Shown piece by piece: positions 9,743 through 35,513 of a DNA stretch of 36,216 nucleotides. The notes under the pieces are model-generated. The model was not told the origin of the DNA. It made no database searches and saw only the letters and a list, made by a program, of their open reading frames with translations. This DNA is from Acidobacteriota bacterium (GTDB lineage: Bacteria; Acidobacteriota; Terriglobia; Acidiferrales; UBA7541): positions 1-36,216 of the forward strand of contig QHYS01000333.1 in NCBI GenBank assembly GCA_003223325.1. Direction: 5' to 3'. Positions within the stretch are counted from its first letter, which is position 1. Every line of letters begins with the position of its first letter. The position numbers and the translations under genes are program-made.

Positions 9743-11431
9743 TCAAGACATGAGCGCCACAATCACTGTGCCCCAGGTGGTCAGCAAGATATGTCCGATC
9801 GCCGCTGTGTAGGAATATCCGAGCGTCGCAACCGGGCTGTCCGACTTCTCCTGCACTGCGGCGACGCCGGCAATCATGGTTTGCGCACCGGCGATTCCGC
9901 CTAGCAGTAGCAGGGGATTGAGCTTTAGAACGTACCGCCCGAAGAAGATTCCCGAGATCAGCGGAGTGAGGGTGACCACAATCCCACCGAAGAAAAGTAA
10001 ATAGCCAGAATTTCGAACCGTGCTCACAAAAATCGGTCCGGCCTTGAGACCGACCATCGCGACAAAAGCAGCCAGACCAATCGACTTCATGAAAAGAATC
10101 GCTTCCTCGGGGATTCCTCCAAGCCACGGCCGTACTGACCGCATCCAGCCCACCACTAGCCCAGCGAGTAAAGTTCCTACACTTGTGCCTAGAGTCAGTC
10201 TCAGGTGGCCAATCGGTATGGTAATGACTGCACCTACCAACACTCCAATGAAAATTGCAACACCTAGCGTTGCGAGATCGCTCTCTTCGAGTGGACGCAG
10301 TACTCTGCCAACAGTCGGAGTCAACTTTTCTACGGCGGATTCCGTTCCCGTAATCTCAAGAATGTCCCCACGTTCCACGACTAGCTGAGTCCCTAGGGGG
10401 AGTGATTGGCCATTGCGAATTATTCGGCGCAGCAGGACGCCATGCGTCTCCTCCCGCTCCGCGAGTTCCTGGAGGGTCTTTCCAGCGATGTCCCTGCTGG
10501 TGACATACAGGTCATAAGAAGCAACAGGAATTTGTAGCAACTCCGGGTCCACGACCTCACTCGATTTCGGACCCAGAGCTTTAACCAGAATTTCAGTCCG
10601 CCCGATCACAGCCAGCGTGTCGCCAGCCTCCAGGACGGTTGTGCCTGGAGGCGAGAAGATATCGCCCTTGCGCCGGATTCGCTCCACAAAAAGACGAGCC
10701 CCAGGAACTAATTTCTCTGCCTCTGCTATTGTCTTTCCAATGACGGGCGCATCCTGCGGCACTTCATACGCGCGAAACGAAATGGGCTGCCATGCGGGAT
10801 GGACGCCGTGCTTGGTACGCCGCATCCCCAGGTTCAATTCCAGTTTCTTCGCTTCTCCTTGCAGATCGATGCCTAGCAGTTTCGGGCCCAGGCTGCTGCA
10901 GCACCAGATTACGCCTATGGTTCCGAAGAGATAGCAGATGGAATCGGCGACAGCGATGTGTCCTATCAGTTGGGTCTTTTGGTCGTCGGGTAATGACAAG
11001 GCTCGGATTGCTTCGCTCGCAGTACCGATGACCGGCGACTCCGTCAGAGATCCGGAGAGCAATCCAGCCGAAAATCCGACATCCAACTTCAGGAAGCGGG
11101 CCACCGCGTAAGCTGTCAGGAGACCGACAACAGGCACGAAAACCGCCAGAAGAGCCCATCGCCAACCATCGCCCTTGAGATTCCGGAAGAAACTGGGGCC
11201 TACTGAGTAGCCAATACCGAAGAGAAACAAAAGGAAGAGTATCGCTTTCGCCTGGTCGGAGACAGGGACATGGAAAAAATTCCCGAGGAAGATTCCTCCC
11301 AGCAAAGAACCCGTGACTGCGCCCAGGCCGACACCCCGGAACTTAAACCGTCCAATCAAATATCCGATACCGACCGCTAGATAGACCCCCATTTCCGGAT
11401 ATTTTGCGAACAACTTGGCTAGCCATTCCAT
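9743..11431 (-). CDS. aspT: Aspartate:alanine antiporter, copy 1
   Basis: A 562-residue inner-membrane protein of the AspT/YidE duplication family. Two membrane blocks (residues ~10-175 and ~380-560) flank a large cytoplasmic region (~200-375) with two TrkA-C (RCK_C) domains (e.g. LEAGDTLAVIGRTEILV, VERGDILEITGTESAV). Family signatures include GYLIGRFKFRGVGLGAVTGS, GLLSGSLTESPVIGTASEA and GIAGAQTMIAG. Known members exchange external aspartate for internal alanine electrogenically, building proton motive force with aspartate decarboxylase. The start ATG 11431 has AAGGA upstream. It is the last gene of the decarboxylation cluster, 147 bp after copy 2. The two copies are clearly diverged, so they may differ in substrate. 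Confidence 0.9.
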   Translation of the reverse strand: MEWLAKLFAKYPEMGVYLAVGIGYLIGRFKFRGVGLGAVTGSLLGGIFLGNFFHVPVSDQAKAILFLLFLFGIGYSVGPSFFRNLKGDGWRWALLAVFVPVVGLLTAYAVARFLKLDVGFSAGLLSGSLTESPVIGTASEAIRALSLPDDQKTQLIGHIAVADSICYLFGTIGVIWCCSSLGPKLLGIDLQGEAKKLELNLGMRRTKHGVHPAWQPISFRAYEVPQDAPVIGKTIAEAEKLVPGARLFVERIRRKGDIFSPPGTTVLEAGDTLAVIGRTEILVKALGPKSSEVVDPELLQIPVASYDLYVTSRDIAGKTLQELAEREETHGVLLRRIIRNGQSLPLGTQLVVERGDILEITGTESAVEKLTPTVGRVLRPLEESDLATLGVAIFIGVLVGAVITIPIGHLRLTLGTSVGTLLAGLVVGWMRSVRPWLGGIPEEAILFMKSIGLAAFVAMVGLKAGPIFVSTVRNSGYLLFFGGIVVTLTPLISGIFFGRYVLKLNPLLLLGGIAGAQTMIAGVAAVQEKSDSPVATLGYSYTAAIGHILLTTWGTVIVALMS

Positions 11432-11578
11432 ACCGTGTCCTTTTGCGCTTCAGAACAGTGGCCGACGAGTTGTCGCTCGAGTCTCGTTCGAGCTTGCTCA
11501 ATCCAACCTATCTCGAAAAGGCTCACTGCCTTGGAGGTACGATCAGAGGGTCCATGCCGATTCCATTTCAAAGTTCAT

Positions 11579-13333
11579 TCACGAAATCATTAAGATGAGG
11601 ACCATGCCCCAGATCGTCAGCAAGGTGTTTCCGACTGCATAGGTTACCGTGTACCCGAGCGCCGGCACTTGGCTCTTGCCCCGATCGCAAACCAGGCCCA
11701 GCGAAGCTGTCGTCGTGCGCGCTCCTGAAACGATGCCAAGCAGAATCGCGTCGTGGAAGCGGAAGATGTACTTGCCGATGTACATACCCAGAACCAGCGG
11801 AACCATGGTTGCCACGGCACCCCATAGGAACAGGCTGACGCCCTGCGTCCGCAAACCATTCACGAAGCCCGGACCGGCTGAGATGCCGACGATGGCAATG
11901 AAGATGTTGAGACCGACCGAGTTCATGAACCAGACCGTCGACGACGGAATGCGCCCGAACGTCGGGTGCACGGAGCGCAACCACCCGCAAACGAGTCCTG
12001 AGATGAGCGCTCCTCCTGCGGTTGACAGCGTCAGTGGCACGGCGGCAATTTTCCAGACCAATGCACCGACCAGTGCTCCGATCGCAATGCCAGCCCCGAT
12101 GAACGCGACGTCAGCGACGTCGGTCGGCCGATCCGCGGCGCCGAGAGTTTTGGCTACGGCGGCGATGTCCTGGGTACGGCCGACCAGGTTTAGGATGTCG
12201 CCTCTGTAGATTTTCGTATTTGGCAAAATCGGCATCGAGGTAGCAACTGCTCCTCTTGTGATTTTTCGGAGGAAAATGCCTCGAGCCGAAGGTAGCGTTG
12301 CAAGTTCAGCAAGGGTCTTGCCGTCTGCCTTCTTGCTGGTAACGTAGATATCGACACCCTCTACCGGCATGCTCAGCAATTCGGGATCGTCAACCTCTTG
12401 CGGACCGTCACTCACGCTTACGAGCGTGTCACGAGCACCGGACACTGCTACCGCTCTTACGCCTTGTCCAATCACATTTACGAGCACGTCCCGCGCGCCG
12501 GCCACCGCCACCACGTCGCCCTCACGCAAAACAGTGTCCGCGGTTGCGTCTTCGATCAAGTTCCCACGACGTATTCGCATAACAAAAACGCGCGCATCGG
12601 GGACGAGCGCCTCAGCCTCCATGGCTCGGAGTCCAACAATCCTCGCGCCCGGTCTTACCCGGAATGCACGCATCTCCCAGCGGTGCCAGGCCGAACCGGC
12701 CCCGCCTTGTGCCTTGGTGCCGCCCTGTTTCTCTTCGTAGTCCTTGCAGGCGGCTGCCAGATCTATGCGAAGCAATGCAGGGCCGAGTACGGCGATTACA
12801 ATCGCCGAACCGACAGTGCCGAACATATATGTCACGGCATAAGCGATCGGCATCGAATCCAGAAGGGCCTTTGCTTGATCAGCCGACAAGCCCAATCGGT
12901 TGATAGCGTCGGTTGAGAGGCCCATCGCGGCTGAGATAGTCTGAGAACCGGAATAAAGACCCGCCCCATAACCCAGGTTGTAGCCGACGATCTTCACGAC
13001 TGCGAATGGGGCAAGCAAACAGAACGCGCATTGCACGACTGAGAAGATGGCTTGCGGCAGGCCATCCTTCGCGACACCGCGCACAAACTGCGGTCCGACA
13101 CCGTACCCGACAGCAAACAGAAACATGAGGAAGACAGTTGCCTTGAGAGGAGGCGAGATCGTAATCCCCAGTTGTCCGATCAGGACACCGGCTAACAAGG
13201 TTGCGGTAACTGACCCCAGGCCGATGCCTTGGAAAGTGAACTTGCCGAAGTAGTACCCGAGAGCAAGCACGAGGAAGATGGCGATCTCCGGGTAGTGGCG
13301 GAGAGTATCAGCGAACCACGTCAATATAAACAT
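11579..13333 (-). CDS. aspT: Aspartate:alanine antiporter, copy 2
   Basis: A 584-residue paralogue of copy 1 from ATG 13333, preceded by GAAGGAGG; an upstream in-frame start at 13393 lacks such a site. The architecture is the same: N-terminal membrane block ([38 protein letters not shown]), two RCK_C domains (residues ~215-385), and a C-terminal membrane block ending [19 protein letters not shown]. It lies 75 bp after the aspartate decarboxylase gene and is the more likely dedicated partner. The first RCK_C domain contains a 20-residue tandem duplication ([13 protein letters not shown] / [13 protein letters not shown]) that copy 1 lacks, accounting for most of the length difference. Confidence 0.92.
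12420..12512 (-). repeat. 60-bp degenerate tandem duplication inside aspT copy 2
   Basis: Two ~33-bp cores begin at 12420 and 12480, exactly 60 bp apart, each starting ACGAGC and ending ACC. They encode [10 protein letters not shown] and [10 protein letters not shown] within the first RCK_C domain. The copies differ mainly at synonymous or conservative positions, so the duplication is old and tolerated. Confidence 0.7.
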
Positions 13334-13408
13334 CGTCAGCCTCCTTCTATGGAGCGACAGCGCATGCGCTTTGGCGCTCAGCCGTCGGCGCAAACGTGTC
13401 GTACCAAG

Positions 13409-15055
13409 TCACGATTGCTGGTCCTTCCAAACCTCGACTGCTCTGTGCACTACAGCCGCTAGTTGTCCACCGATCTTGCCGTATGCCTCGTCCGGGAGGT
13501 TGGCGAGCGAGACTCGAACCGACCAATCCGGTCCGGCAAAGCCGCTGCCGTTGAGAAGTACCGTGGAGAATTTCTCCGCCAGGGCGAAGAGAATGTCGAA
13601 GGGGTGGTAGTTGTTCTTGAGAAATTCGACGAACCGTGGACCGTGGGTTTTTTCGGCCCAAACCATTATGTCGAGCGTAGCGTAATAGTCGGCACGCAAT
13701 GGATCTGGTGGAAGAGGCAGATTCATCCCGTCCCAAAGGGCTTTCAACCGGCGTTGCACGATTTCTTTCGTGAGCTTCTTGTAGCGGTCTTTTTTATCCG
13801 AGAGCGCGAAGAGCGAGAACAGGGTCATCTGAACCTGTTGGGGCAGAGACAGGCCTGCGGTGTGATTGAGGGCTACGCACCGGCTATCTGCCACCATGCG
13901 ATCGATGAACTTGAGGCTTTCAGGATGGAGCGTCAGCGGACCATATCGAGTATTTAGCTGTCGACGAGTCTCATTGGGCAAGTTCGCGAGTGCCTTGTCA
14001 AAAATATTGTCTTGATGGATTGCAACCACCCCAAGGCGCCAACCCGTGCAACCGAAATACTTCGAAAACGAATACACACCAATCGTGTTCTGGGGAACTT
14101 CTGCCATGAGGGAGCGGAATCCAGGCACGAAGGTTCCATAGACATCATCGGTGACCACGATCAGGTCAGGACGTTGGCTCTGAATCAGGCTAGCCAGCCG
14201 ATTCATCGAACTTGCACGCATGGCCACGGAAGGTGGATTGCCGGGATTGACGAAGAACAACGCCTTGACCGAGGGGTCTGCCAGCCTGTCAATTTCTGCA
14301 TCCGGGTACTGCCATGTGTGGCGACCATCACTCGGAGAAACTTCATCCGCCTTGATCTCAGTGATTTCAAAATTGAAGCGGTCAAGATGGCAAATCTCGA
14401 TATACGGGGTGAACGTCGGTACAGCGAGAGCAACTTTATCCCCCCGATGCAACAGGTGATTTACGATCAGTGAATCGAAGATGTAACACATTGCAGCGGT
14501 GCCACCCTCGACCGCGAAGATGTCAATCTTCTCAGGGGCTTTTATTCCGGGGCACATTTCTTTGTTCAGGTAGGCGCGCACGACGCGTTCAGCATGGACC
14601 AGCATGCGATCCGGAGACGGGTACTGGTCTCCGATGATGCTGTCGACGAGCTCATGAACAAATGCGTCCGGATCGAACTCGAATTCCTTTACAGCAAAAT
14701 CAATGGCCGTCCGAAGCATGCTTCCACCGGGAGCATTAGGATTGCTGTCGAGAAATTGCATCAAGCGTTTCGCCATTCCGGGTTTCTGAGGCATCCCGCC
14801 AAGGTCGGGTTGGTCCCATACCCGCTTCGATTCCTCAATTGCAAATGTGCCCAGAGTAAAAAAAGCCTGACGCGGAGTGGTTGCAATCCAATTGGGGTTA
14901 CCCCGGCCAGCATTCAACATAGTCTGGGCACTCTGCCGAGTCGCCTCGCTGGCTAGCTGGATCAACTTATCTTTCAGTTCGAATGGACTCAACTTTTCAA
15001 GCTCTTTTTGTTGTTCAAGAGTTACCGAGAGATGCCGAATTACTCCAGTTGCCAT
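13409..15055 (-). CDS. aspD: Aspartate 4-decarboxylase (bifunctional aminotransferase fold)
   Basis: A 548-residue PLP enzyme of aminotransferase fold type I. It decarboxylates L-aspartate at the beta-carboxyl to L-alanine and CO2, consuming a cytoplasmic proton. The PLP lysine is K332 in YSFSKYFGCTGWRLG; other family features are NAGRGNPNWIATTPR near the N-terminus, FFVNPGNPPS and VTDDVYGTF. Length matches known AspD enzymes (~530-550). The start ATG 15055 sits behind AAGGAGGAA. The gene is 36 bp after the large decarboxylase and 75 bp before aspT copy 2, an operon-like arrangement known for AspD-AspT. The reading frame is clean, so the core proton-consuming cycle appears intact. Confidence 0.94.
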   Translation of the reverse strand: MATGVIRHLSVTLEQQKELEKLSPFELKDKLIQLASEATRQSAQTMLNAGRGNPNWIATTPRQAFFTLGTFAIEESKRVWDQPDLGGMPQKPGMAKRLMQFLDSNPNAPGGSMLRTAIDFAVKEFEFDPDAFVHELVDSIIGDQYPSPDRMLVHAERVVRAYLNKEMCPGIKAPEKIDIFAVEGGTAAMCYIFDSLIVNHLLHRGDKVALAVPTFTPYIEICHLDRFNFEITEIKADEVSPSDGRHTWQYPDAEIDRLADPSVKALFFVNPGNPPSVAMRASSMNRLASLIQSQRPDLIVVTDDVYGTFVPGFRSLMAEVPQNTIGVYSFSKYFGCTGWRLGVVAIHQDNIFDKALANLPNETRRQLNTRYGPLTLHPESLKFIDRMVADSRCVALNHTAGLSLPQQVQMTLFSLFALSDKKDRYKKLTKEIVQRRLKALWDGMNLPLPPDPLRADYYATLDIMVWAEKTHGPRFVEFLKNNYHPFDILFALAEKFSTVLLNGSGFAGPDWSVRVSLANLPDEAYGKIGGQLAAVVHRAVEVWKDQQS

Positions 15056-15091
15056 GGCTTTCCTCCTTGGGCGAGAACAATCTTTGTTTTT

Positions 15092-17314
15092 CTAGGCGGC
15101 AGTTTGCCGCTTCGTTTTCTTAACCTCTTCGGTCGGGGGCTTGCCTGTATCGCGGGCCAATTTGAGGAAGGCCGGCTTCAACAGCTTCAGTCCCAGGGAG
15201 GAACTGAATCCGTGAATTTCCTTCACGTCGAGTTGGCGCATGAACTCGATGGTTTCAGCCGTGATGACCTGCCCCGGAACCATGATCGGGAAGCCAGGAG
15301 GGTAGGGAATCACGAAGCTCGCGGATACCAACTCGGGTCCAGCCTTAAGCCGTTTGTCGATCTCCGGACTCGCCAGTTTCAGGTGCTCGCACTGGTGCTC
15401 CCGATAGGCCCCGAAGAAGGCGGAGCGTATGTTACCCTCGCTTGTCACACTCGAGGGATCCTCTCGGAAGCTATCGTGGAAACAACTGAAGTTCGGCAGA
15501 TTGGGTACATCCTCCATCAGCGACTTCACCCGCGCGGCAAACGCCTGCTGAGCTGCTTCGCCTCCCTGCGCCAGCTTCTTTTCGATTCCCCGTGAGATTT
15601 CGACGAGGACCTTAATCAGCTGGGCAATGTCGCTGCGCGTGTTGTTGATGTTGGTTTGCAGCAAAACGCTGTTGCGGCTGGTCTTGTTGAGTTGAATGTC
15701 GTACTCAGCCGCCAACAGATTCTTGAACTGGGTCCCGTCGAATCCTGCAGATCCACAAACCAGAGTGAGTCGCGTCACATCCAAGGCGAACTCATCTTCG
15801 CGAAGAGTCTTGACCGCAGTGGCCCAGTTAACTCCGGGCGTCAAATAGTCCACAAATCCAGTTTCACGAAATTCAGCGGGAATCAGCTCGTCGGCCCCTA
15901 GAATCCGGAAGTATTTCGAAACCAGGGGATGCGAGTTGATCTCGCGCCGCGCATCGAGTGCTAACTGAACGGCCCGGTTCACCAGTTCATAACCTTCGAG
16001 TTCCATCTGGCGTCTGGCGACATCTAGGGACGCGATGATCTGTAGATTTGGTGACGTGGAGGCGTGAGTAAACACGGCCTCGTGAAACTGCTCCTCGACG
16101 GTGTGGTAGTCCTGGTCCCTGACCAATACCATCGAACCTTGCCGCAGGCTGGACATCGACTTATGCGTCGAGTTGGTCTGATAGACGCGCAGGTGGACCT
16201 TATCGGGGTTGGCGAGCAACCGAGTTGTGAGGAGCCTTGGATCTTTGGGATCGAGATCAGCTCCAAGCTTCTTCTCCTGCGCCGAATAAGCCGTTCCGTA
16301 CGCGGGGTCCCTGAACTTGTTTTCCAGAATGGCAGCAGCTCCCATCGCGGTCCGCCGCCGATAGAAGGGACTCCAGCGAGCGAATCCAAACCATGCCTCG
16401 TCCCACAGGAAAATCAGATCCGCTTTGATAGCGAGGCACTCTTCCATCACCCTTTCGACGTTGTAGATATGTCCATCGAAAGTACAGTTTGTAAGTACGA
16501 GCAGCCTTGCCCGGTTCAACTTCCCTTCGACCTTCAGATCAAGCAAAGCCTTCTTAATGGTGCGCAGGGGTACGGCTCCATACATCGAGTACTGCGTCAG
16601 CGGGTAAGCCTCCAGGTAAAGCGGTAGCGCGCCGACAAGGACAGCGCCGTAATGGTGGGACTTGTGGCAGTTACGGTCGACCAACATGATGTCGCCCGGT
16701 GCGAGCAACGCTTGTTCGATCATCTTGTTCGAAGTTGAGGTCCCGTTGGTAACGAAGAAGACATGGTCGGCCCCGAACGCACGCGCTGCTTTTTCCTGTG
16801 CCACCTTGATCTTGCCGGTCGGCTCGAGCAGGCTGTCCAGGCCTCCCGTGGTGGCCGAGGACTCAGCCAGGAACAGGTTCAGGCCGTAAAACGCGCCCAT
16901 GTCCCGAATCCAATTCGACTTGAAAATGGATTTGCCCCTGGCTACAGGCAGTGCGTGGAAGGTGCCGATGGGGCGCTGGGAATACTTCTGGAGATTATCA
17001 AAGTATGGCGTATCAAACCTGTCTTGAACCGCGTCGAGGATGCTGAGGTGAAGTTCCAGGGGTTCCTCGACCTGGTAAAAGATCCGCCGAATGCAGCTGG
17101 CGGATATGTCGCCCGCTGCTTTTTCCACTTGCCGGTCGCTCAGCAAGAAAATGTCGAGCTCGGGACGAATTAGTTTCAGCCCCTTGGCTAGCGCGAGAGC
17201 GTATTCCTCCGTTTTCTGGGCGTTGCCCGTTGCGGCAAGATGGGAGGTGAGGAACTCATGTAAAACGGCACTATTATGCGAGGACGCGAATGGAATGCCC
17301 TCGTAAATCACCAC
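15092..17314 (-). CDS. Large Orn/Lys/Arg decarboxylase, PLP-domain part
   Basis: A 740-codon frame carrying the core of a fold-type-I basic amino acid decarboxylase. It has the PLP lysine K385 in NSTHKSMSSL, the aspartate D305 in FLWDEAWFGF, FFVTNGTSTSNKM, and VDRNCHKSHHYG. A C-terminal domain follows (~640-740) ending KKTKRQTAA. The first ~60 residues continue a wing-like N-terminal domain whose beginning is encoded in another frame at 17274-17831. The GTG at 17314 has no convincing Shine-Dalgarno, so this frame is probably the second half of one ~925-residue enzyme. The substrate (arginine, lysine or ornithine) cannot be told. Decarboxylation would consume a proton and release CO2 and a polyamine or agmatine/cadaverine. 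Confidence 0.85.
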   Translation of the reverse strand: MVIYEGIPFASSHNSAVLHEFLTSHLAATGNAQKTEEYALALAKGLKLIRPELDIFLLSDRQVEKAAGDISASCIRRIFYQVEEPLELHLSILDAVQDRFDTPYFDNLQKYSQRPIGTFHALPVARGKSIFKSNWIRDMGAFYGLNLFLAESSATTGGLDSLLEPTGKIKVAQEKAARAFGADHVFFVTNGTSTSNKMIEQALLAPGDIMLVDRNCHKSHHYGAVLVGALPLYLEAYPLTQYSMYGAVPLRTIKKALLDLKVEGKLNRARLLVLTNCTFDGHIYNVERVMEECLAIKADLIFLWDEAWFGFARWSPFYRRRTAMGAAAILENKFRDPAYGTAYSAQEKKLGADLDPKDPRLLTTRLLANPDKVHLRVYQTNSTHKSMSSLRQGSMVLVRDQDYHTVEEQFHEAVFTHASTSPNLQIIASLDVARRQMELEGYELVNRAVQLALDARREINSHPLVSKYFRILGADELIPAEFRETGFVDYLTPGVNWATAVKTLREDEFALDVTRLTLVCGSAGFDGTQFKNLLAAEYDIQLNKTSRNSVLLQTNINNTRSDIAQLIKVLVEISRGIEKKLAQGGEAAQQAFAARVKSLMEDVPNLPNFSCFHDSFREDPSSVTSEGNIRSAFFGAYREHQCEHLKLASPEIDKRLKAGPELVSASFVIPYPPGFPIMVPGQVITAETIEFMRQLDVKEIHGFSSSLGLKLLKPAFLKLARDTGKPPTEEVKKTKRQTAA

Positions 17315-20208: not shown

Positions 20209-21108
20209 TTAGCCGCCAGCAAGGCCGCGGTTTACGAGGATTTTGACTTCTACACGGCGGTTCCCTGCGCGTCCCTGTGAGGTTTCATTCGTCGCGGCCG
20301 GATCTGCAGTGCCCATGGCTCCAGGAGCTATGATGTGTCTGACCGGCACGTTGCAGTCCTGCAACAGGAAAGCAATCACTGCCTGTGCTCGATCCATGCT
20401 CAACCTCTGATTCATGGCTGGATTACCTGACGAATCAGCGAATCCTTTAACCTGGATAATGTAGCCGGTGAGATTTACCGCCTCGTGCGCCAGTTTTTTG
20501 AGAGAATTTTTGTCGCTGGTTGAGATTGTGGAACTACCGGTACGAAAATAGGCCGTAGCCTGCCCCTTCACATCGTATTCGCTAAGCTGGTCGAAACGCC
20601 TGGCGGCCTCCTGAATTTCTTGCTGGTTAGCTGCGATCTGCTCCTGGTTGGCGTTGATCCTTTCTCTGTTGGCGGCGATTTGTACCTTGTTTGCCCCAGT
20701 GTCTTGCTGGTTGGTTTCTACCGCCTCTTGCGTCTGTGTCAGGCCAGCTTGAATTGTTTCGGCGGTTTGTAAGTCGTCCCCTGAAAAGTTAATGGTCGCG
20801 GCCACCACACGGTTCTGCGCGTCACCCACGCCGTCGACTGAGATTTTGAGTCCGGGGATCAGAACCGTAGTACTCATTTGTTTCTTGCGCAGACCGAGAC
20901 CTTTTGGTTTCTGAACCTTGGTGTCATCGGTCAGCACAACCGTGACCTTCCCGGACGATGTTTTCAGTGTCAAAGTATCTCCACTGCGCCCTGTTATGAG
21001 TCCATTGAGTTTTACGCTTTCTCCATTGGTAATGCTGTATGCTGTATCCGCCGCCATCCAACATGTCAATGCGACCAGTGTGATTGCATATCTCTGTATT
21101 GCGTGCAT
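20209..21108 (-). CDS. OmpA-family protein with DUF5666-like N-terminal domain
   Basis: A 299-residue exported protein. A signal peptide (ITLVALTCWMAADTAYS) precedes a small beta domain (~25-105; VKLNGLITGRSGDTLTLKTS, LIPGLKISVDGVGD). A heptad-like Asn/Gln-rich helical spacer follows (~110-170; ANRERINANQEQIAANQQEI). Last is an OmpA_C peptidoglycan-binding domain (~180-290) with YFRTGSSTIS, VKGFADSSGN and NQRLSMDRAQAV carrying the family Asp and Arg. There is no N-terminal barrel, so it is probably a periplasmic or lipid-independent peptidoglycan-associated protein. The ATG at 21108 has AGAGGCGAG upstream. The N-terminal domain resembles the repeats of the LPKTG protein at 32320-33087. It is apparently monocistronic. 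Confidence 0.88.
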   Translation of the reverse strand: MHAIQRYAITLVALTCWMAADTAYSITNGESVKLNGLITGRSGDTLTLKTSSGKVTVVLTDDTKVQKPKGLGLRKKQMSTTVLIPGLKISVDGVGDAQNRVVAATINFSGDDLQTAETIQAGLTQTQEAVETNQQDTGANKVQIAANRERINANQEQIAANQQEIQEAARRFDQLSEYDVKGQATAYFRTGSSTISTSDKNSLKKLAHEAVNLTGYIIQVKGFADSSGNPAMNQRLSMDRAQAVIAFLLQDCNVPVRHIIAPGAMGTADPAATNETSQGRAGNRRVEVKILVNRGLAGG

Positions 21109-21782: not shown

Positions 21783-22427
21783 ATGGAACAGCGCCACAAA
21801 GCTCGACTCCTCATTGCCGATGACCACACGCTCGTGGCTGAGGCATGCAAGAGGTTTCTCGAGCCGGAATTCGAAGTTGTGAGTATCGTCGCCGACGGAC
21901 GGACCTTGCTGCGGATGGTAACCGAGCTCAAGCCCGACGTCGCGATTGTGGATATCGCGATGCCACAACTGAACGGGTTGGATGCGGGCGAGCAGGTCAA
22001 GCGGATATCGCCTTCGCTAAAGCTGATCTACCTGACCATGAACACAGAACCGGATGTGGCGGCCGAGGCATTTCGGCGTGGCGCCTCCGGATACGTTGTC
22101 AAGAGCTCTGCAGCCGAAGAGTTGGTGACCGCCATTCGAAAGGCTCTGCGATCGGAATCGTACTTATCTCCGATGATCACGAAGGAGACCGTGGAATTCC
22201 TTCTCCGAAGCGGGCAATCGTACGCCGAGGAGAAAAGAATCACGCAACGCCAGAGCGAAGTCCTCCAACTACTTGCCGAGGGAATGTCCATGAAAGGGAT
22301 TGCGAGCATCCTGAATTTGAAGCCCGGCACGGTGGCCTTCCACAAATATAGAATCATGCACAATTTGGGTTTGAAGACCAACGCCGAGCTGCTTCAGTAT
22401 GCAATTAAGCACCACATGATTGCCTGA
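21783..22427 (+). CDS. NarL/LuxR-type response regulator, copy 1
   Basis: A 214-residue transcription regulator. The receiver (1-120) has DD in LLIADDHTLVAEA, phospho-acceptor D57 in VAIVDIAMP, T in IYLTMN and K in GYVVKSS. A LuxR-type HTH (~145-210) carries ITQRQSEVLQLLAEGMSMKG and GTVAFHKYRIMHNLGLKTNA. It would be phosphorylated by a HisKA_3 kinase; the MASE1 kinase at 6091-8088 is the only one in the window. It is closely related to the regulator at 31313-31960 across its whole length. The MscS channel gene starts 207 bp downstream on the same strand and could be a target (inference). Confidence 0.94.
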   Translation: MEQRHKARLLIADDHTLVAEACKRFLEPEFEVVSIVADGRTLLRMVTELKPDVAIVDIAMPQLNGLDAGEQVKRISPSLKLIYLTMNTEPDVAAEAFRRGASGYVVKSSAAEELVTAIRKALRSESYLSPMITKETVEFLLRSGQSYAEEKRITQRQSEVLQLLAEGMSMKGIASILNLKPGTVAFHKYRIMHNLGLKTNAELLQYAIKHHMIA

Positions 22428-28161: not shown

Positions 28162-29166
28162 CTAGTCGTCGTCATTCGGGACAGGGGTCCAGGATTGGTC
28201 TGGGTTGAAGCGCTGCATCTTCTTGAATTCGTTGAAGGTTTCCAGCCCAAAATCCTTCTCGTAAAGAACGCCGTCGTGGCTAACAATGAAGGTCCTCATT
28301 CCGGTCACGCCGTATTGGGCTGGCGCAGCCACTAGGGCAAAGCCCCCGATCATTACGCCCTTCACGACAAAATCCATTTCGCCGAGCGGTGCCGCAGGTC
28401 CCTGCCCGGTCAGAATTTTGAAGAAATAGCCGTGGTATGGCTCCGCACGGCTCGTGTAGCCCTGTTCGATCGCGCGGGCAATCTTCTCCCCTATGGGACC
28501 TCCCCAGGTACCATCGGGGTTTTGCCAGGCCAAACCATCCTGCTTGCCGGGAGTACTAATAATGCGCTGGGCATACTGGTTGACCTCGTAACCCTCGCGC
28601 TTATGAAGCGCGTATTCGTGCTGCGACTCCACATAGCCATGGCAGATTTGAATGGCATCCAATTCATTGGCGCCTATGCGGCGATAGAGGAGTTCTTGCC
28701 GGCCGGCTTTGGCATCAAAGGACCATTTGTTGCCCCTCTTCACAAGCGGGACGGGGAACGGCCAGTCCTCGTTGCCCACGAGGAGGAACGCGCGGTCCCC
28801 CGTCTTCGGATCCACAGAAATACTTTTTTTTTCGCGAGCCTCAGCACTGAAATTAGCCGCGTGCTGTCGGTCTTGCGCGAATTCCCCGCTAAACACAACG
28901 TCCTCGCCAGCGGAGCCAAAAATCCGCGCGAGCGCAACCACGTCGAACTTCGCGGCAGCGTCGACTAACACGTCGACAGCCTGTTGCGGACTGGCAAACC
29001 TCCAGGCACCAGAAGCAGGAGTAGTGCTAGCGGCTGGAGTTTTTTTCACTGTGGGTCGCTGCGCAGCCACAAAAAACGGCGCGCACAGACACGCCCAGAC
29101 CATTGCGCGGAGAATGCAAAGGAGTTTGGGAAAATTTCTATCCACAGATAATCTCATTGTGTGCAT
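28162..29166 (-). CDS. DUF2950 family exported protein
   Basis: A 334-residue protein. The signal peptide (MVWACLCAPFFVAA) follows a charged N-terminus. Mature features typical of DUF2950 are RFASPQQAVDVLVDAAAKFD, LVGNEDWPFPVPLVKRGNKW, FDAKAGRQELLYRRIGANEL, AEPYHGYFFKILTGQGPAAP and GVTGMRTFIVSHDGVLYEKD. The function of the family is unknown. It is a conserved periplasmic/secreted protein usually encoded next to DUF3300, as here (31 bp upstream on the same strand). ATG 29166 has CAGGG upstream; ATG 29157 is an alternative. The sequence ends in an acidic NDDD. The intact frame in a decayed neighbourhood suggests the DUF3300-DUF2950 pair is under selection. Confidence 0.9.
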   Translation of the reverse strand: MHTMRLSVDRNFPKLLCILRAMVWACLCAPFFVAAQRPTVKKTPAASTTPASGAWRFASPQQAVDVLVDAAAKFDVVALARIFGSAGEDVVFSGEFAQDRQHAANFSAEAREKKSISVDPKTGDRAFLLVGNEDWPFPVPLVKRGNKWSFDAKAGRQELLYRRIGANELDAIQICHGYVESQHEYALHKREGYEVNQYAQRIISTPGKQDGLAWQNPDGTWGGPIGEKIARAIEQGYTSRAEPYHGYFFKILTGQGPAAPLGEMDFVVKGVMIGGFALVAAPAQYGVTGMRTFIVSHDGVLYEKDFGLETFNEFKKMQRFNPDQSWTPVPNDDD

Positions 29167-29196
29167 CCCTGATTTACATTCCGGAATCCGGGTCCT

Positions 29197-30513
29197 CTAC
29201 CTGCGTCGCCCGCCGCCACCGCGACTAAAGCCTCCGCCGGCACGATTGAAGCCTCCGCTTCGAGATCCCATGCTGGAAGCGCCGCGGCTGCTGCCGGCGC
29301 GAGCACTCGAACCGTTGTATCCCCTGGAACCCCCTCCGAAAGCATCTCGGTTTCCGCCACCACTGCGCGAGAGATCCCGGCTTCCTATGCGGTCTGCTCC
29401 GCTTCCTCCTGCTCTGTTGCCAAGGCCTGCAGCGCCCCGATTGCTCATACCATTTCCTGCGGCGCGGTTGCTGGCCAGATTGCCACCCTGTCGGCCAAGC
29501 TGTTGCCGCGCACTGGCCTGGCGGTTCGCAATAGACTCACCGCGTGTCGTCCCTCCAAACCTGTCCGCCGTCGCCCGGTCTCGATAGGGGGCACCGCCGC
29601 GATGTTCCGGTCTGTGCTGCCAGCGGTTGCTTGCATTTCCGCCTCGGTTGCCGCCACCGATGTTGGTGCGGTTACCGCCGCCGATGTTGGTGTTACGGTT
29701 GAAATTGTTGTTATGGTTGACGTAGACGTTATTGTTGCCACCCCAGCCGCAGCCCCAGCCCCAACCACCGCTCCAGAACGCGCCCATGGCCACGCCAACG
29801 CCGAAAGAAATTGCCATCCCTGCGGCATAGTACCCCGGAGGTGGATAGTAAATTGGCGGGTAGGGATAGACCGGCGGACCGTACACCACCACCGGATCAT
29901 ACGAAGGTACATACACCACTTGCGGGTTAGCCTGTTCGACGACAATCACGCTTTTGTTTTCGATGACTTTGGTTTCCACCTTCTGTTGCTCAGTCGATTT
30001 CAAATTGCCCTTTTCCTGGGCTCTCTTGCGCATTCGCTGCACGGCATCCATTACATCGCTTTGTTGCGCCAGAAAGGCGTTGCCTAGATCGGTGGTCCAT
30101 TGAATGTCGTCCGCGAGGCGTTTTACCACATCGGCCAGAGCGGCCATGGCCTGGATGCTCGGATCCCAGGGCTGTTTCGCCACAGCTTCTGCAAGGGCTT
30201 TGTCCTTCAAATTCTTGTTTTTCTCCAGCCACTGCTGGAGCTGGATGATTTCGAGAGGATATGTAGACACCGCCAGCGTCTGGGCCAGCACCGGGTCTGG
30301 ATACAAGGCAATGGGCGCCACCAGAGAGTCCAGCTGGTCGGACGGGATCTTGGATGGTTGATTCTCTGGCGAGGATGCGGGCGCTTGCCAACTGGATGAC
30401 ATGTAAGCCACGGTTTCGCCTGATACGAGAGCAATGATGCAAAGCATCACCAGCAGAGATCGCAAGGTCGCAAGGGCTCGTTTCCAATTCATGGACCGTA
30501 TTCCACTTGCCAC
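29197..30513 (-). CDS. DUF3300 family exported protein with Gly/Arg/Asn-rich tail
   Basis: A 431-438 residue protein. The start is either GTG 30513 or ATG 30492; neither has a strong ribosome-binding site. A signal peptide (LVMLCIIALVSGETVA) leads to the DUF3300 domain (~50-240): LVAPIALYPDPVLAQTLAVS, YPLEIIQLQQWLEKNKNLKD, AKQPWDPSIQAMAALADVVK and VVYVPSYDPVVVYG. A Tyr/Pro-rich stretch and a Gly/Trp-rich hydrophobic segment follow (~225-265), then ~170 residues of low complexity rich in Gly, Asn, Arg and Ser with NIGGGNR repeats, ending GGGRRR. The basic tail could bind polyanions or DNA outside the cell (inference). It is translated ahead of DUF2950, probably as one operon. Confidence 0.9.
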   Translation of the reverse strand: MASGIRSMNWKRALATLRSLLVMLCIIALVSGETVAYMSSSWQAPASSPENQPSKIPSDQLDSLVAPIALYPDPVLAQTLAVSTYPLEIIQLQQWLEKNKNLKDKALAEAVAKQPWDPSIQAMAALADVVKRLADDIQWTTDLGNAFLAQQSDVMDAVQRMRKRAQEKGNLKSTEQQKVETKVIENKSVIVVEQANPQVVYVPSYDPVVVYGPPVYPYPPIYYPPPGYYAAGMAISFGVGVAMGAFWSGGWGWGCGWGGNNNVYVNHNNNFNRNTNIGGGNRTNIGGGNRGGNASNRWQHRPEHRGGAPYRDRATADRFGGTTRGESIANRQASARQQLGRQGGNLASNRAAGNGMSNRGAAGLGNRAGGSGADRIGSRDLSRSGGGNRDAFGGGSRGYNGSSARAGSSRGASSMGSRSGGFNRAGGGFSRGGGGRRR

Positions 30514-31192: not shown

Positions 31193-31312
31193 ACAACCGG
31201 CAGTAACGTGTTTTACCCCGCATTTGAAACGCAAGCCGGGGGACAAAATCAGGGAACCAGAAGCAGATCATCAGATTCTCTCACGGCCCTTTTTGTAGTT
31301 AGGAGGGACAAA

Positions 31313-31960
31313 ATGCAGAGAAATCATCCCCGCATTTTAATTGCCGATGACCACACCCTGGTTGCAGAGGCATGCAAGAAACTCCTCGATGCCGAATACG
31401 ACGTGGTCGGTACGGTCAGTGATGGTCGTGCCCTGGTGCGCGTGGCTGCCGAATTGAGACCGCACCTTATCATCATTGATGTTGCCATGCCTGTACTGAA
31501 TGGCCTGGACGCTGGCCAACAGATAAAGGAATTATTACCCTCGGTAAAACTGGTGTACCTGACGATGAACCACGATGCCGATCTGGCAGCTGAGGCATTC
31601 CGTCGCGGGGCATCGGGATATCTGCTCAAGACCTGTGCTGCTTCGGAATTGGTGATTGCCGTTCGCGAGGTGCTGAGAGGGAAGTCGTACCTGTCGCCCA
31701 TGATAGCCAAAGACACGGTGGATTTCTTGTTGCGCCAGGATAAGAGGCTGGTTGAGGAAGCGGCCCGGTTAACCGTGAGGCAGCGTGAAGTGCTGCAACT
31801 GTTGGCGGAGGGAAAGTGCATGAAGGAAGTAGCCGGGGTGCTGAACTTGACGACCCGGACGGTGGCGTTTCACAAGTACCGAATCATGGAGGTGCTTAAC
31901 GCCAAGAGCAATGCCGAACTGGTGCAGTATGCGATCAGGAATCACTTAATCTGTGCTTGA
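31313..31960 (+). CDS. NarL/LuxR-type response regulator, copy 2
   Basis: A 215-residue regulator from ATG 31313 with AGGAGGGA at 31301-31308; the frame is open further upstream but the ribosome-binding site decides the start. The receiver has ILIADDHTLVAEACKKLL, phospho-acceptor D56 in LIIIDVAMPVLNGLDAG, VYLTMNHDADLAAEAFRRGA and K in GYLLKTC. The LuxR HTH has LTVRQREVLQLLAEGKCMKE and TRTVAFHKYRIMEVL. It is a paralogue of copy 1, with the same order of diagnostic phrases and the same YLSPMI...TV.FLLR linker. The immediate neighbours are decayed or unassigned sequence; no kinase is adjacent. Target genes are unknown. Confidence 0.94.
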   Translation: MQRNHPRILIADDHTLVAEACKKLLDAEYDVVGTVSDGRALVRVAAELRPHLIIIDVAMPVLNGLDAGQQIKELLPSVKLVYLTMNHDADLAAEAFRRGASGYLLKTCAASELVIAVREVLRGKSYLSPMIAKDTVDFLLRQDKRLVEEAARLTVRQREVLQLLAEGKCMKEVAGVLNLTTRTVAFHKYRIMEVLNAKSNAELVQYAIRNHLICA

Positions 31961-32319: not shown

Positions 32320-33087
32320 TTAACCAATGCGAATTGTTTTCAACGCCAGCGAAGCCGCAAGCGACAAGCTTCCTATTAATCCGAGAAGCGGTAGCGAGCT
32401 GCCAGTCTTCGGGAGCTTCGCCGGAGCTTCTCGAACCGCGAGCGTGGGCGCCGGTGCGGCTACGGCGATCAAAATGGGCACGTTCGCCGGCGGCGGCGGT
32501 GGCGGCGGTGGCATCGAGCCGGTTACCTTTCTCTGTTGTGTGACCACTGTCTCAGGAGCTTCGACGATTTTGGTGGCCGAGACCCTCATGCCCTTTCTTA
32601 GACCCCAGGCATCCGTTTCTTGGCCATCGACCATAAACTTCTGACCGTTGGGAATCTTGAATTGCTGATTCGTTCCATTTTCCAGCGTCAGAATTACGGA
32701 GTTAGGGGGAGTTATGTGCCATACTTTTCCCGTGACCGTCTGCACCGTTGTAACGGTCTGGGGAGTGGAGGTCGTGGTGATGGTACGCTCTAGCTTCATG
32801 CCGGGTTTCAGATCATGGATTCCGAGTTCCCTACCTTCGCCCGTCACTCTTGCAGTCTCCGGCACATTGGGAATATGCCGGATCTCGCCATCTTCCATTT
32901 TGACGACTAGGTCATTACCTGAGACCGTAACCACTTCACCGCGCTCCACGGACACTTCGTGGGTGGGTTGCCCCGGTGTCGTAGTGCTTTGCGTTTTCAC
33001 TTGTGCCTTTAACCTTAAGGTGACGAGGCAAGTAGCCCCAGCCAAAAGCATCAGCCCCACTGTCATCCATCCGGCTTTTGCGTTCAT
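32320..33087 (-). CDS. LPKTG sortase substrate with two tandem ~70-residue repeats
   Basis: A 255-residue protein with all parts of a sortase substrate. A signal peptide (MTVGLMLLAGATCLVTL) is followed by two tandem beta-type repeats, residues 50-120 and 121-190, each ending TVTG/KVTG. They share the plan 'G.V......V.L..G....IP.......G......L..GM.......'. A polyproline hinge (eight prolines, 193-200) and Ala/Pro linker lead to the sorting signal: LPKTG at 225-229, hydrophobic segment 231-249 (SLPLLGLIGSLSLAASLAL) and a basic tail (KTIRIG). The start ATG 33087 sits behind AAGGAG. The gene begins 24 bp after the sortase stop, so the pair is an operon. The sortase should cleave between T228 and G229. 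The biological role is unknown; repeats resemble DUF5666-like domains. Confidence 0.88.
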   Translation of the reverse strand: MNAKAGWMTVGLMLLAGATCLVTLRLKAQVKTQSTTTPGQPTHEVSVERGEVVTVSGNDLVVKMEDGEIRHIPNVPETARVTGEGRELGIHDLKPGMKLERTITTTSTPQTVTTVQTVTGKVWHITPPNSVILTLENGTNQQFKIPNGQKFMVDGQETDAWGLRKGMRVSATKIVEAPETVVTQQRKVTGSMPPPPPPPPANVPILIAVAAPAPTLAVREAPAKLPKTGSSLPLLGLIGSLSLAASLALKTIRIG

Positions 33088-33111
33088 CGTATTTTCTCCT
33101 TGTTTTCTCTT

Positions 33112-33873
33112 TCAACGACTATAAATTCGACTTAATGACGGACGTGCAACACCGGTCATCGTGTGCTCTCGGTGTCTTTGCTGTTTGTTGATCCCGAGGT
33201 CCATTCCTTCGCTTACCGGAAAGTTCTTCGGGTCGAAATTCGTGTTCGAAGCTTGGACGATGTAGCGCTGCGGGGCACTGCCTATGAAATAGAACGGGTA
33301 ACACGTCACCAGCGTGAGGGAAGGCTGCTGCCGAGGCTGCAACACCGAGACGTCATCGGGGCTGACGATCACGATCCGGTCCACCACATAAGTATCGGTT
33401 CGCTTGGGACCCTGCAACTCAATCGCGTCTCCTGGGCCGATATCTTTCAACCCCCTAAAAAATCCATCCCGATGGCCGGCAATCCCGATGTTGCCTTCTT
33501 CCCCCGGGCCCACCGTGCCGGCGATATGGCCGACCCCGATGTTCAAGATCAGATCATCGGTCCCGCTGAATACCGGCACCTCGAGATGAACCTTGGATAT
33601 GCGTAGAACCGCCACGGGACTGTCAACGCCTATGCCAGTACTTCGTTCGAATTCCTCGATTCGCTTGCTCGACCAGAGGCTAAAATCGGGCTTTGATTGC
33701 TTCCACCGCTGAAAATCGCTTGGGCTATCGGTTGATCTCGCAACCCGTCCTCCGAATCTCCGCAGTTCGGCACGCGTCGAAATTGTTCCATGAATGCGGA
33801 CGGCAACGTAGGTCGCCAGAAGCAACAACCCACAAATGAACAGCAGCCGCTCTAGCCTGGGAAGAAACGTCAT
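33112..33873 (-). CDS. Class D-like sortase (transpeptidase)
   Basis: A 253-residue membrane-anchored cysteine transpeptidase. One N-terminal helix (LLFICGLLLLATYVAV) anchors it, and the catalytic domain (~85-215) would lie outside the inner membrane. Catalytic residues are visible: H134 in IAGHRDGFF, C191 in TLVTCYPF and R203 in APQRYIVQA. Further family phrases are GHIAGTVGPGEEGNIGIAGH and ISKVHLEVPVF. The overall pattern fits class D; the proteobacterial GN class is an alternative. It should cleave the LPKTG motif of the neighbouring product and attach it to an amine acceptor, presumably on peptidoglycan (inference). An unusual basic tail of ~40 residues (INKQQRHREHTM...) follows the catalytic domain. 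Upstream lies a folded leader (33913-33951). Confidence 0.9.
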   Translation of the reverse strand: MTFLPRLERLLFICGLLLLATYVAVRIHGTISTRAELRRFGGRVARSTDSPSDFQRWKQSKPDFSLWSSKRIEEFERSTGIGVDSPVAVLRISKVHLEVPVFSGTDDLILNIGVGHIAGTVGPGEEGNIGIAGHRDGFFRGLKDIGPGDAIELQGPKRTDTYVVDRIVIVSPDDVSVLQPRQQPSLTLVTCYPFYFIGSAPQRYIVQASNTNFDPKNFPVSEGMDLGINKQQRHREHTMTGVARPSLSRIYSR

Positions 33874-34466: not shown

Positions 34467-34467
34467 T
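34156..34467 (-). CDS. Possible translationally coupled small protein, unknown
   Basis: A 103-codon frame whose ATG overlaps the stop codon of the VWFA gene as TAATG. It has a polar N-terminus (DDSPMAIEEGGEGDLKDRQN), a basic middle and one hydrophobic segment (YRGIVGLVFVAMIYP). No family is recognised and composition is not clearly coding. The start-stop overlap is the only positive sign. Confidence 0.25.
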   Translation of the reverse strand: MLGNLAPQDDSPMAIEEGGEGDLKDRQNQDPNSCKQSTRPLRNETAAMAARTTAPRWSRKFRRYRGIVGLVFVAMIYPESPSLVMSASQRVVRRDYSLVWRIR

Positions 34468-35513
34468 TATTCTGGAGGAGCATAATACCCTTTCTTAGCG
34501 TTTAGCTGCAGGTGCGGTAGCCCTTTTGGAGGCGACAGTTTAATCTTTAGCTTGTGCCATCTGCCATCTCGTACTGGGTGCGCGGGGCGGTAACCGAGCA
34601 CATACTGGTTGCGCAGTTCAAGGCCAATTTTTAAGGCAACGTCGACTAACTCATTTGGATTATCGACAGTGAATGCACGTCCGCCGGTTAGCGTTGTGAT
34701 TTCATCCAGAAGCAGTGGCCCATAGCGCTCCTCGGTCGTAGGGAAGGAACGATCGTAAATGCCAATCGCGTAAATTAGGGTGTCAGCTTCCTCGACTACA
34801 GATTTGATCTCCTTCTCTGTGTAACGGCTGTTGTTATCACCACCGTCCGAGAGAATCAGTAACGCTTTCTTTGAATATTTTGCTTCCCGCATTTTGCTGA
34901 GACCCAGGTAAACAGCATCCAGCAGCGCAGTGCGCCCCTTCGGCGCGGTATAGACTAGCGGGCTGGCGATGTCCTCTACCACCGTGGTAAAGCTAGCAAT
35001 TTGCTGCGGCTTGTCAGCAAACGTAACCACGAAGAACTCGTCCTGCGGATTGGCTGCCTTCAAGAATTGCAGAATCGCCTCGCGTGCTAGTTGGATTTTA
35101 CTGTCCATGCTGCCGCTCGTGTCTAGGATCACGCCGAGAGAGACTGGTGCATCTTCGGTGGAAAAGTGCAGTATCGTCTGTGCCTCATTGTTATCGAAAA
35201 CGTGAAAATGTTCCCTATCCAATCCGGTCACCAGCCGGTCCATGGAATCTGAAACGGTCACAGTCACCAAGACTAAATCTACGTTGACTTTGAAAGGCTT
35301 GATCCTGGTATCAAAGAAAGCTTCTGGTTTCTTATTGGTGCTCATCCGCATTTCGTGACCAGGCGTGATCTCGACTTGCGTGTCGGTGATTTGACCGGTC
35401 ACAAACCTGGAACTCAGAAGAAGCAGCACCGCCAATAGTGATGCTGACCAGTTACGAATTCGCGGCCCAATTACGCATTTGCGAGAGCGAAACGTGCTTG
35501 TCATGGAAGCCAT
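34467..35513 (-). CDS. VWFA-domain exported protein (acidobacterial VWFA-related family)
   Basis: A 348-residue protein. A signal peptide (SASLLAVLLLLSSRFVTG) precedes an N-terminal beta region (FKVNVDLVLVTVTVSDSMDR, LDREHFHVFDNNEAQTILHF). A von Willebrand A domain follows (~125-310) with the metal-ion site sequence DTSGSMDSK, TAPKGRTALLDAVYLGLSKM for the threonine loop and LILSDGGDNNSRYT for the third loop. The end (YVLGYRPAHPVRDGRWHKLK, AKKGYYAPPE) is typical of the VWFA-related acidobacterial family (TIGR03436). It is presumably an exported adhesion or protein-binding module. It has no LPXTG signal, unlike VWA substrates of some Gram-negative sortases. The 5' leader contains a hairpin that may mask its ribosome-binding site. 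ATG 35504 is an alternative start. Confidence 0.92.
   Translation of the reverse strand: MASMTSTFRSRKCVIGPRIRNWSASLLAVLLLLSSRFVTGQITDTQVEITPGHEMRMSTNKKPEAFFDTRIKPFKVNVDLVLVTVTVSDSMDRLVTGLDREHFHVFDNNEAQTILHFSTEDAPVSLGVILDTSGSMDSKIQLAREAILQFLKAANPQDEFFVVTFADKPQQIASFTTVVEDIASPLVYTAPKGRTALLDAVYLGLSKMREAKYSKKALLILSDGGDNNSRYTEKEIKSVVEEADTLIYAIGIYDRSFPTTEERYGPLLLDEITTLTGGRAFTVDNPNELVDVALKIGLELRNQYVLGYRPAHPVRDGRWHKLKIKLSPPKGLPHLQLNAKKGYYAPPE

Follow-up and report, generated by a model that had tools for sequence, protein, structure and literature searches.

Textbook accounts treat the anchoring of proteins to the cell wall by sortases as a Gram-positive trait and make an exception for the class GN enzymes. 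What, then, is a sortase gene followed by a gene with an LPKTG sorting signal doing in a soil member of the Acidobacteriota, on contig QHYS01000333.1 (the whole 36,216-nt stretch analysed here is called the window)? LptD is present in the source genome (6.1 Mb, 98.4% complete), and a DcaP-type porin and an OmpA-family protein are encoded in the window; the cell thus has an outer membrane, in agreement with what a first, sequence-only reading of this DNA had deduced from the porin and OmpA-family genes. We describe the locus (Table 1) as a conserved, dedicated class D-like sortase–substrate pair of outer-membrane bacteria, for which we infer cleavage, acceptor and role.

Table 1. Features of the sortase–substrate locus, in window coordinates.
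Feature	Position	Strand	Evidence
NarL/LuxR-type response regulator, convergent with the pair	31208..31960	+	Response_reg and GerE domains
Sortase substrate, 255 aa, A family	32320..33087	-	Homologs directly downstream of related sortases
Hydrophobic segment (residues 232-254) and short basic tail (K250, R253)	32320..32394	-	Helix in model; tail profile
LPKTG sorting motif (residues 225-229)	32401..32415	-	P226 invariant in 29 homologs
Two tandem beta-barrel (OB/TOBE-like) repeats (about residues 31-191)	32515..32997	-	AlphaFold2 model
Predicted Sec-type signal peptide (about residues 1-28)	33004..33087	-	Sequence and N-terminal helix in model
24-nt spacer between the genes	33088..33111	-	AAGGAG Shine-Dalgarno at 33101-33096, read from the sequence
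Class D-like sortase, 253 aa	33112..33873	-	PF04203; closest solved chain 2LN7; AlphaFold2 model
Catalytic Arg203 codon	33265..33267	-	Invariant in 12- and 35-sequence alignments
Catalytic Cys191 codon (TLVTC motif)	33301..33303	-	Invariant in 12- and 35-sequence alignments
Catalytic His134 codon	33472..33474	-	Invariant in 12- and 35-sequence alignments
W67...R71 motif (DFSLWSxxRI) before the catalytic domain	33661..33675	-	Hallmark of the window's sortase lineage

The upstream gene product belongs to the sortase superfamily by its score on PF04203 (E = 9.3e-28; 96.9 bits for a cut-off of 26.6), by its invariant residues and by its fold. The H134, C191 and R203 motifs that had been spotted in the sequence are borne out by this match and by their invariance in both alignments of sortase relatives; the W67/R71 motif is nearly invariant among the 35 relatives of the larger one. 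The AlphaFold2 model (pLDDT 84.9) shows one long N-terminal membrane helix, a catalytic beta-barrel and a C-terminal tail of about residues 215-253 that is disordered; it matches known sortases, the best at a Foldseek E of 9.3e-13. Among solved chains, SrtD of Bacillus anthracis (PDB 2LN7, E = 3e-36) comes first by sequence, followed by SrtD of Clostridium perfringens (PDB 4D70, E = 1.6e-29).

Class D is the best-scoring sortase class for this enzyme, which falls just short of the cut-off of one NCBIfam class D model (NF058671, 139.8 bits for 140) and misses that of the other (NF033746, 126.9 for 165); some relatives from the B lineage described below pass the first model, at 142-151 bits. It is because class D scores best yet misses the curated cut-offs that we keep the label “class D-like”, already proposed in the sequence-only reading. 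The profile search with sortase class models, suggested there as a check, left the other classes far from their cut-offs, be it class GN (TIGR03784, 79.2 for 158.25), the pilus class C (NF033745, 73.1 for 160) or class E. Judged by these profiles, the enzyme is class D-like by affinity, outside formal class D membership, and class GN is excluded. A GN-type system with a VIT/VWA target was rejected accordingly, the sortase being far below TIGR03784 and the substrate having neither a VIT nor a VWA domain. A VWA gene does lie upstream of the sortase, at 34467-35513 (-), and encodes an acidobacterial VWA protein (TIGR03436, 214.9 bits); it was discarded as a GN-type target, since it has no LPxTG tail, is separated by a gap of about 600 bp and is not among the recurrent neighbours of related sortases.

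The position of the sortase gene 24 bp upstream of the LPKTG gene was verified together with the coordinates, and the Shine-Dalgarno sequence is found 8 nt ahead of the substrate ATG. The signal peptide, LPKTG, hydrophobic segment and basic tail reported from the sequence were recovered in the sequence and in the model, the signal peptide as a prediction; the LPxTG, the hydrophobic helix and the basic C-terminal tail are all visible by eye. Curated anchor models gave scores on both sides of their cut-offs: TIGR01167 scores 18.7 for a cut-off of 15.9 in the genome scan, yet 14.8 in the protein scan, and PF00746 (Gram_pos_anchor) scores 17.5 for a cut-off of 20. Across the 29 substrate homologs, L225, T228 and S230 are at least 90% conserved around the invariant proline, while the transmembrane residues drift. 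The AlphaFold2 model (pLDDT 79.7 as a whole, mostly 80-95 in the barrel region) places the barrels between the signal and anchor helices, and a polyproline stretch separates the beta domains from LPKTG. The fold search yielded nothing significant (the best hit had a Foldseek E of 1.7e-3 and a TM of about 0.15; VIA Z of about 5); the weak OB-type matches may merely reflect a shared barrel arrangement, and the OB-like name used for the barrels is tentative. No Pfam model matched the bodies of this A family or of the B family of substrates introduced below, nor did any NCBIfam model match the body of the window's protein. In the OmpA protein of the window (20209-21108), a DUF5666-like domain is recognised at a score under the cut-off; a tie to the substrate is speculation.

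Is this substrate the only client of the enzyme? The search of the source genome found one sortase, and the genome scan found one LPXTG anchor above the curated cut-off, the 32320-33087 gene; a sorting-tail profile that we built from 27 sequences returned the same gene as its sole match (49.9 bits, E = 2.9e-12). With one sortase and one confident sorting signal in the genome, the proposal of a sortase dedicated to one small repeat protein is upheld, and the pair is not a chance arrangement.

The absence of the pair from related genomes had been named as the observation that would speak against it. Five further genomes of the family have the orthologous substrate directly after the sortase, and dozens beyond these, cultured Edaphobacter and Granulicella among them, have orthologous pairs in the same gene order; a related sortase is present in 26 of 61 genomes (source genome counted), and at most of the remaining sortase loci an LPxT[AG] protein with a different body is encoded close by. 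Both genes are absent from all three same-genus genomes examined (73-91% complete), so the pair is patchy.

We then have to ask whether the tail and the enzyme belong together across the phylum, or whether the LPKTG protein is a plain C-terminally anchored membrane protein unconnected with the adjoining sortase, as its tail, workable as a transmembrane helix, and the missed Gram_pos_anchor cut-off would allow. Among 396 Acidobacteriota genomes of 90% completeness or more, a sortase is present in 82 and an LPxT[AG] tail in 67; the tail occurs in 63 of the 82 sortase-bearing genomes vs 4 of the 314 sortase-free ones (Fisher p = 1e-50, uncorrected for relatedness), where three of the 63 (the source genome, G008 and G054) also contributed tails to the profile. 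The four tail-only genomes all have weak matches. Most tails (67/87) are encoded no more than 6 kb from a sortase gene, and 66 of the 67 share its strand (57 upstream, 9 downstream). No tail was matched in 19 of the 82 sortase-bearing genomes; drifted motifs such as LPxAGT, seen beside some sortases of the window's lineage, would account for part of these. Tail-free profiles of the substrate bodies gave a similar picture, again uncorrected for relatedness: the A-family body occurs in 17 of the 396 genomes, 16 of them with a sortase, and the B-family body in 49, of which 43 have a sortase. The six B-family genomes that have no sortase have no tail either. This, together with the strong co-occurrence and adjacency of tail and sortase and the conservation of L-P-x-T-[AG]-S, makes an unconnected membrane protein very improbable. 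An opinion of the sequence-only reading that did not survive is that such a pair is unusual: roughly a fifth of Acidobacteriota genomes carry a sortase gene, in most cases beside one for an LPxT protein, and the pair is more widespread than first thought, in Acidobacteriota, Gammaproteobacteria and Myxococcota.

The comparison of 162 distinct sortases separated two gene orders. In the window's lineage, defined as the 92 sequences with a profile score above 225 bits, the substrate gene lies downstream of the sortase gene in 58 cases and upstream in 8; among the remaining sortases it is upstream in 57 cases and never downstream. The W-x3-R motif follows the same division, being present in 85/91 members of the window's lineage vs 7/69 other sortases. 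At 44 loci an A-family homolog immediately follows a related sortase, and in 16 of 52 close downstream pairs the stop and start codons overlap by 4 nt (ATGA). In one Acidobacteria MAG (L277:2153-3766), sortase and A-family substrate form a single 537-aa frame, either a natural fusion or a sequencing frameshift. Members of the window's lineage include the cultured Edaphobacter aggregans, E. modestus and Granulicella, as well as gammaproteobacteria and Myxococcaceae known as MAGs; the gammaproteobacterial substrates likewise follow the sortase, but are more divergent and were classed as 'other'. In a quick tree with SH-aLRT support, whose only Gram-positive class D sampling is one distant reference, the window's lineage forms a single 87-row branch (SH-aLRT 91), and class GN sortases with VIT/VWA targets fall on a separate one. 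That separate branch holds true GN-type loci from Acidobacteriota (L073, L185, L189 and L197), so at least two kinds of sortase coexist in the phylum; GN-type sortases were noted at these four loci and at L069, three of the five adjoining a VIT/VWA-type LPxTA/LPxSA target.

The sorting motif itself varies. LPxTA and LPxTG are both common, with S nearly always next in the tail alignment; drifted forms are LP[LEV]AGT, seen in some cultured Acidobacteriaceae, and QPDSGT, seen in Terriglobus roseus. We observed LPLAGT, LPEAGT, LPVAGT and QPDSGT beside sortases of the window's lineage at five loci (L200, L238, L261, L274 and L282, T. roseus having the last motif). This drift suggests that sortase and motif change together. 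It also bears on the idea that the pair was newly acquired from a Gram-positive bacterium and does not yet have a settled role: the patchy presence and the absence from three same-genus genomes fit such a transfer, but all close relatives found come from outer-membrane phyla, and lineage structure and motif drift exist within Acidobacteriota. We therefore hold a recent acquisition to be highly unlikely, on a tree sampled with one distant Gram-positive class D reference.

As for the surroundings of the pair, the convergent response regulator has orthologs, 84-86% identical, at the same convergent place in three loci (L209, L211 and L223), while L225, L230 and L226 have orthologs at a greater distance in sequence. 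The response regulator is the most recurrent neighbour of related sortases (13 loci), a count that is partly background from an abundant family; this regulator is a possible partner of the pair. It is 62% identical to a second NarL/LuxR-type regulator of the window, at 21783-22427 (+). Promoter and terminator scans found nothing beyond chance. Elsewhere in the window, DUF2950 and DUF3300 proteins are encoded side by side at 28162-30513 (-), with DUF3300 homologs near related sortases in L208, L216, L225 and L258. The region 9743-17314 (-) carries an aspartate 4-decarboxylase gene (13409-15055), then two aspartate-alanine antiporter genes, beside an Orn/Lys/Arg decarboxylase-like gene; this is probably a cluster for energy gain or acid resistance by decarboxylation, in which the antiporter gene is duplicated. 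An IS630-family transposase gene occupies the contig edge (28-1170, -).

How would the pair work? We consider it likely that the pair is a sortase system, found in outer-membrane bacteria and dedicated to one substrate, which it anchors to peptidoglycan by transpeptidation through C191, with meso-diaminopimelate (meso-DAP) as the likely acceptor; standard sortase chemistry is expected because the catalytic triad is conserved. The substrate would be exported by Sec, and its C-terminal helix would retain it in the inner membrane beside a tethered sortase whose active site would face the periplasm. C191, assisted by H134 and R203, would attack the T-G bond of LPKTG to form a thioester, and the new C-terminus would be passed to an amine, most likely the side-chain amine of meso-DAP in lipid II. 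The two-barrel protein would end up in the periplasm, on peptidoglycan, at the end of a short proline-rich stalk. The DNPR motif is typical of MurE ligases that add meso-DAP. MurE of the source genome carries it, which makes meso-DAP peptidoglycan the likely acceptor. DapF was not found there with PF01678, as could happen if the epimerase has diverged, if meso-DAP is made in a different way or if the assembly has a gap. In B. anthracis, SrtA substrates are linked to meso-DAP in lipid II (PMC7759979), and LPXTG proteins are linked to meso-DAP (PMC3208642).

One has to consider that the sortase could act as a protease, cutting LPKTG with water as the acceptor and freeing the two-barrel protein to the periplasm or the medium; comparable tripartite tails are indeed processed in Gram-negative bacteria by rhombosortase and exosortase (PMC3237569; PMC1569441). 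The closest characterised relatives of our enzyme, however, anchor proteins to the wall. Anchored proteins have proline-rich, wall-spanning linkers before the sorting motif, which the stretch ahead of LPKTG resembles, and release is in our opinion unlikely, though it deserves some weight. Polymerisation of the substrate, or its linkage to another protein in class C fashion, is a clearly weaker candidate. Each subunit does have two domains and the enzyme reaches 73 bits on the class C model, but this is far under the cut-off of 160; operon and genome hold a single substrate gene, with no tip or base subunits, and the substrates of relatives are short (about 174-270 aa), so that we regard it as improbable. 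Within the peptidoglycan-anchoring reading, a bolder version would make the pair a tether from peptidoglycan to the outer membrane replacing Braun's lipoprotein, the barrel head gripping an outer-membrane partner, so that in these phyla a sortase rather than an L,D-transpeptidase would hold the envelope together; this is a rather doubtful speculation.

If peptidoglycan anchoring holds, Acidobacteriota, Gammaproteobacteria and Myxococcota have a class D-like sortase lineage that acts in their periplasm on small substrate families of its own, and outer-membrane bacteria have a second covalent route for fixing proteins to peptidoglycan. Covalent wall anchoring looks common in these three phylogenetic groups and apparently unstudied there; the cultured carriers Edaphobacter, Granulicella and Terriglobus make the system testable.

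A review from 2006 was aware of just a small group of proteobacterial sortases (PMC1586193), and a gene-family table lists six sortases in the Solibacter genome (PMC3174227). Beyond this count, we found no account of Acidobacteriota sortases in the literature searched, which largely leaves subscription papers uncovered, so an earlier description is possible. The nearest solved relative, the SrtD of 2LN7, goes by the name SrtC in the literature; B. anthracis SrtC recognises LPNTA, and its substrate BasI is encoded in the same operon (PMC3208642). This system resembles ours by its single operon, its meso-DAP peptidoglycan and a motif close to the LPxTA/LPxTG of Acidobacteriota, but it is Gram-positive, tied to sporulation, distant in the tree, and its substrate is not of the A family. 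C. perfringens SrtD shares the class D fold, with a monoderm host, other substrates and a preference for LPQTG (PMC5148588). Proteobacterial class GN (TIGR03784, target TIGR03788) shares the outer-membrane host and the single adjoining LPXTG-like target; that target, however, is a large VIT/VWA protein, whereas ours is a small two-barrel protein. L,D-transpeptidases attach Lpp and outer-membrane proteins covalently to meso-DAP peptidoglycan (PMC8263019), a link between envelope protein and meso-DAP peptidoglycan in outer-membrane bacteria like the one proposed here, but made by an unrelated enzyme that uses no LPxTG signal, outer-membrane proteins being attached via an N-terminal Gly/Ala (PMC8263019). 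A further parallel comes from the Acidobacteriota B-family loci found in this study, which share the sorting tail, the enzyme superfamily and one dominant adjacent substrate, and differ in having the substrate upstream, with an unrelated body (the AWFYPGxxxGQEFVYPK family), and a sortase that lacks the W-x3-R motif.
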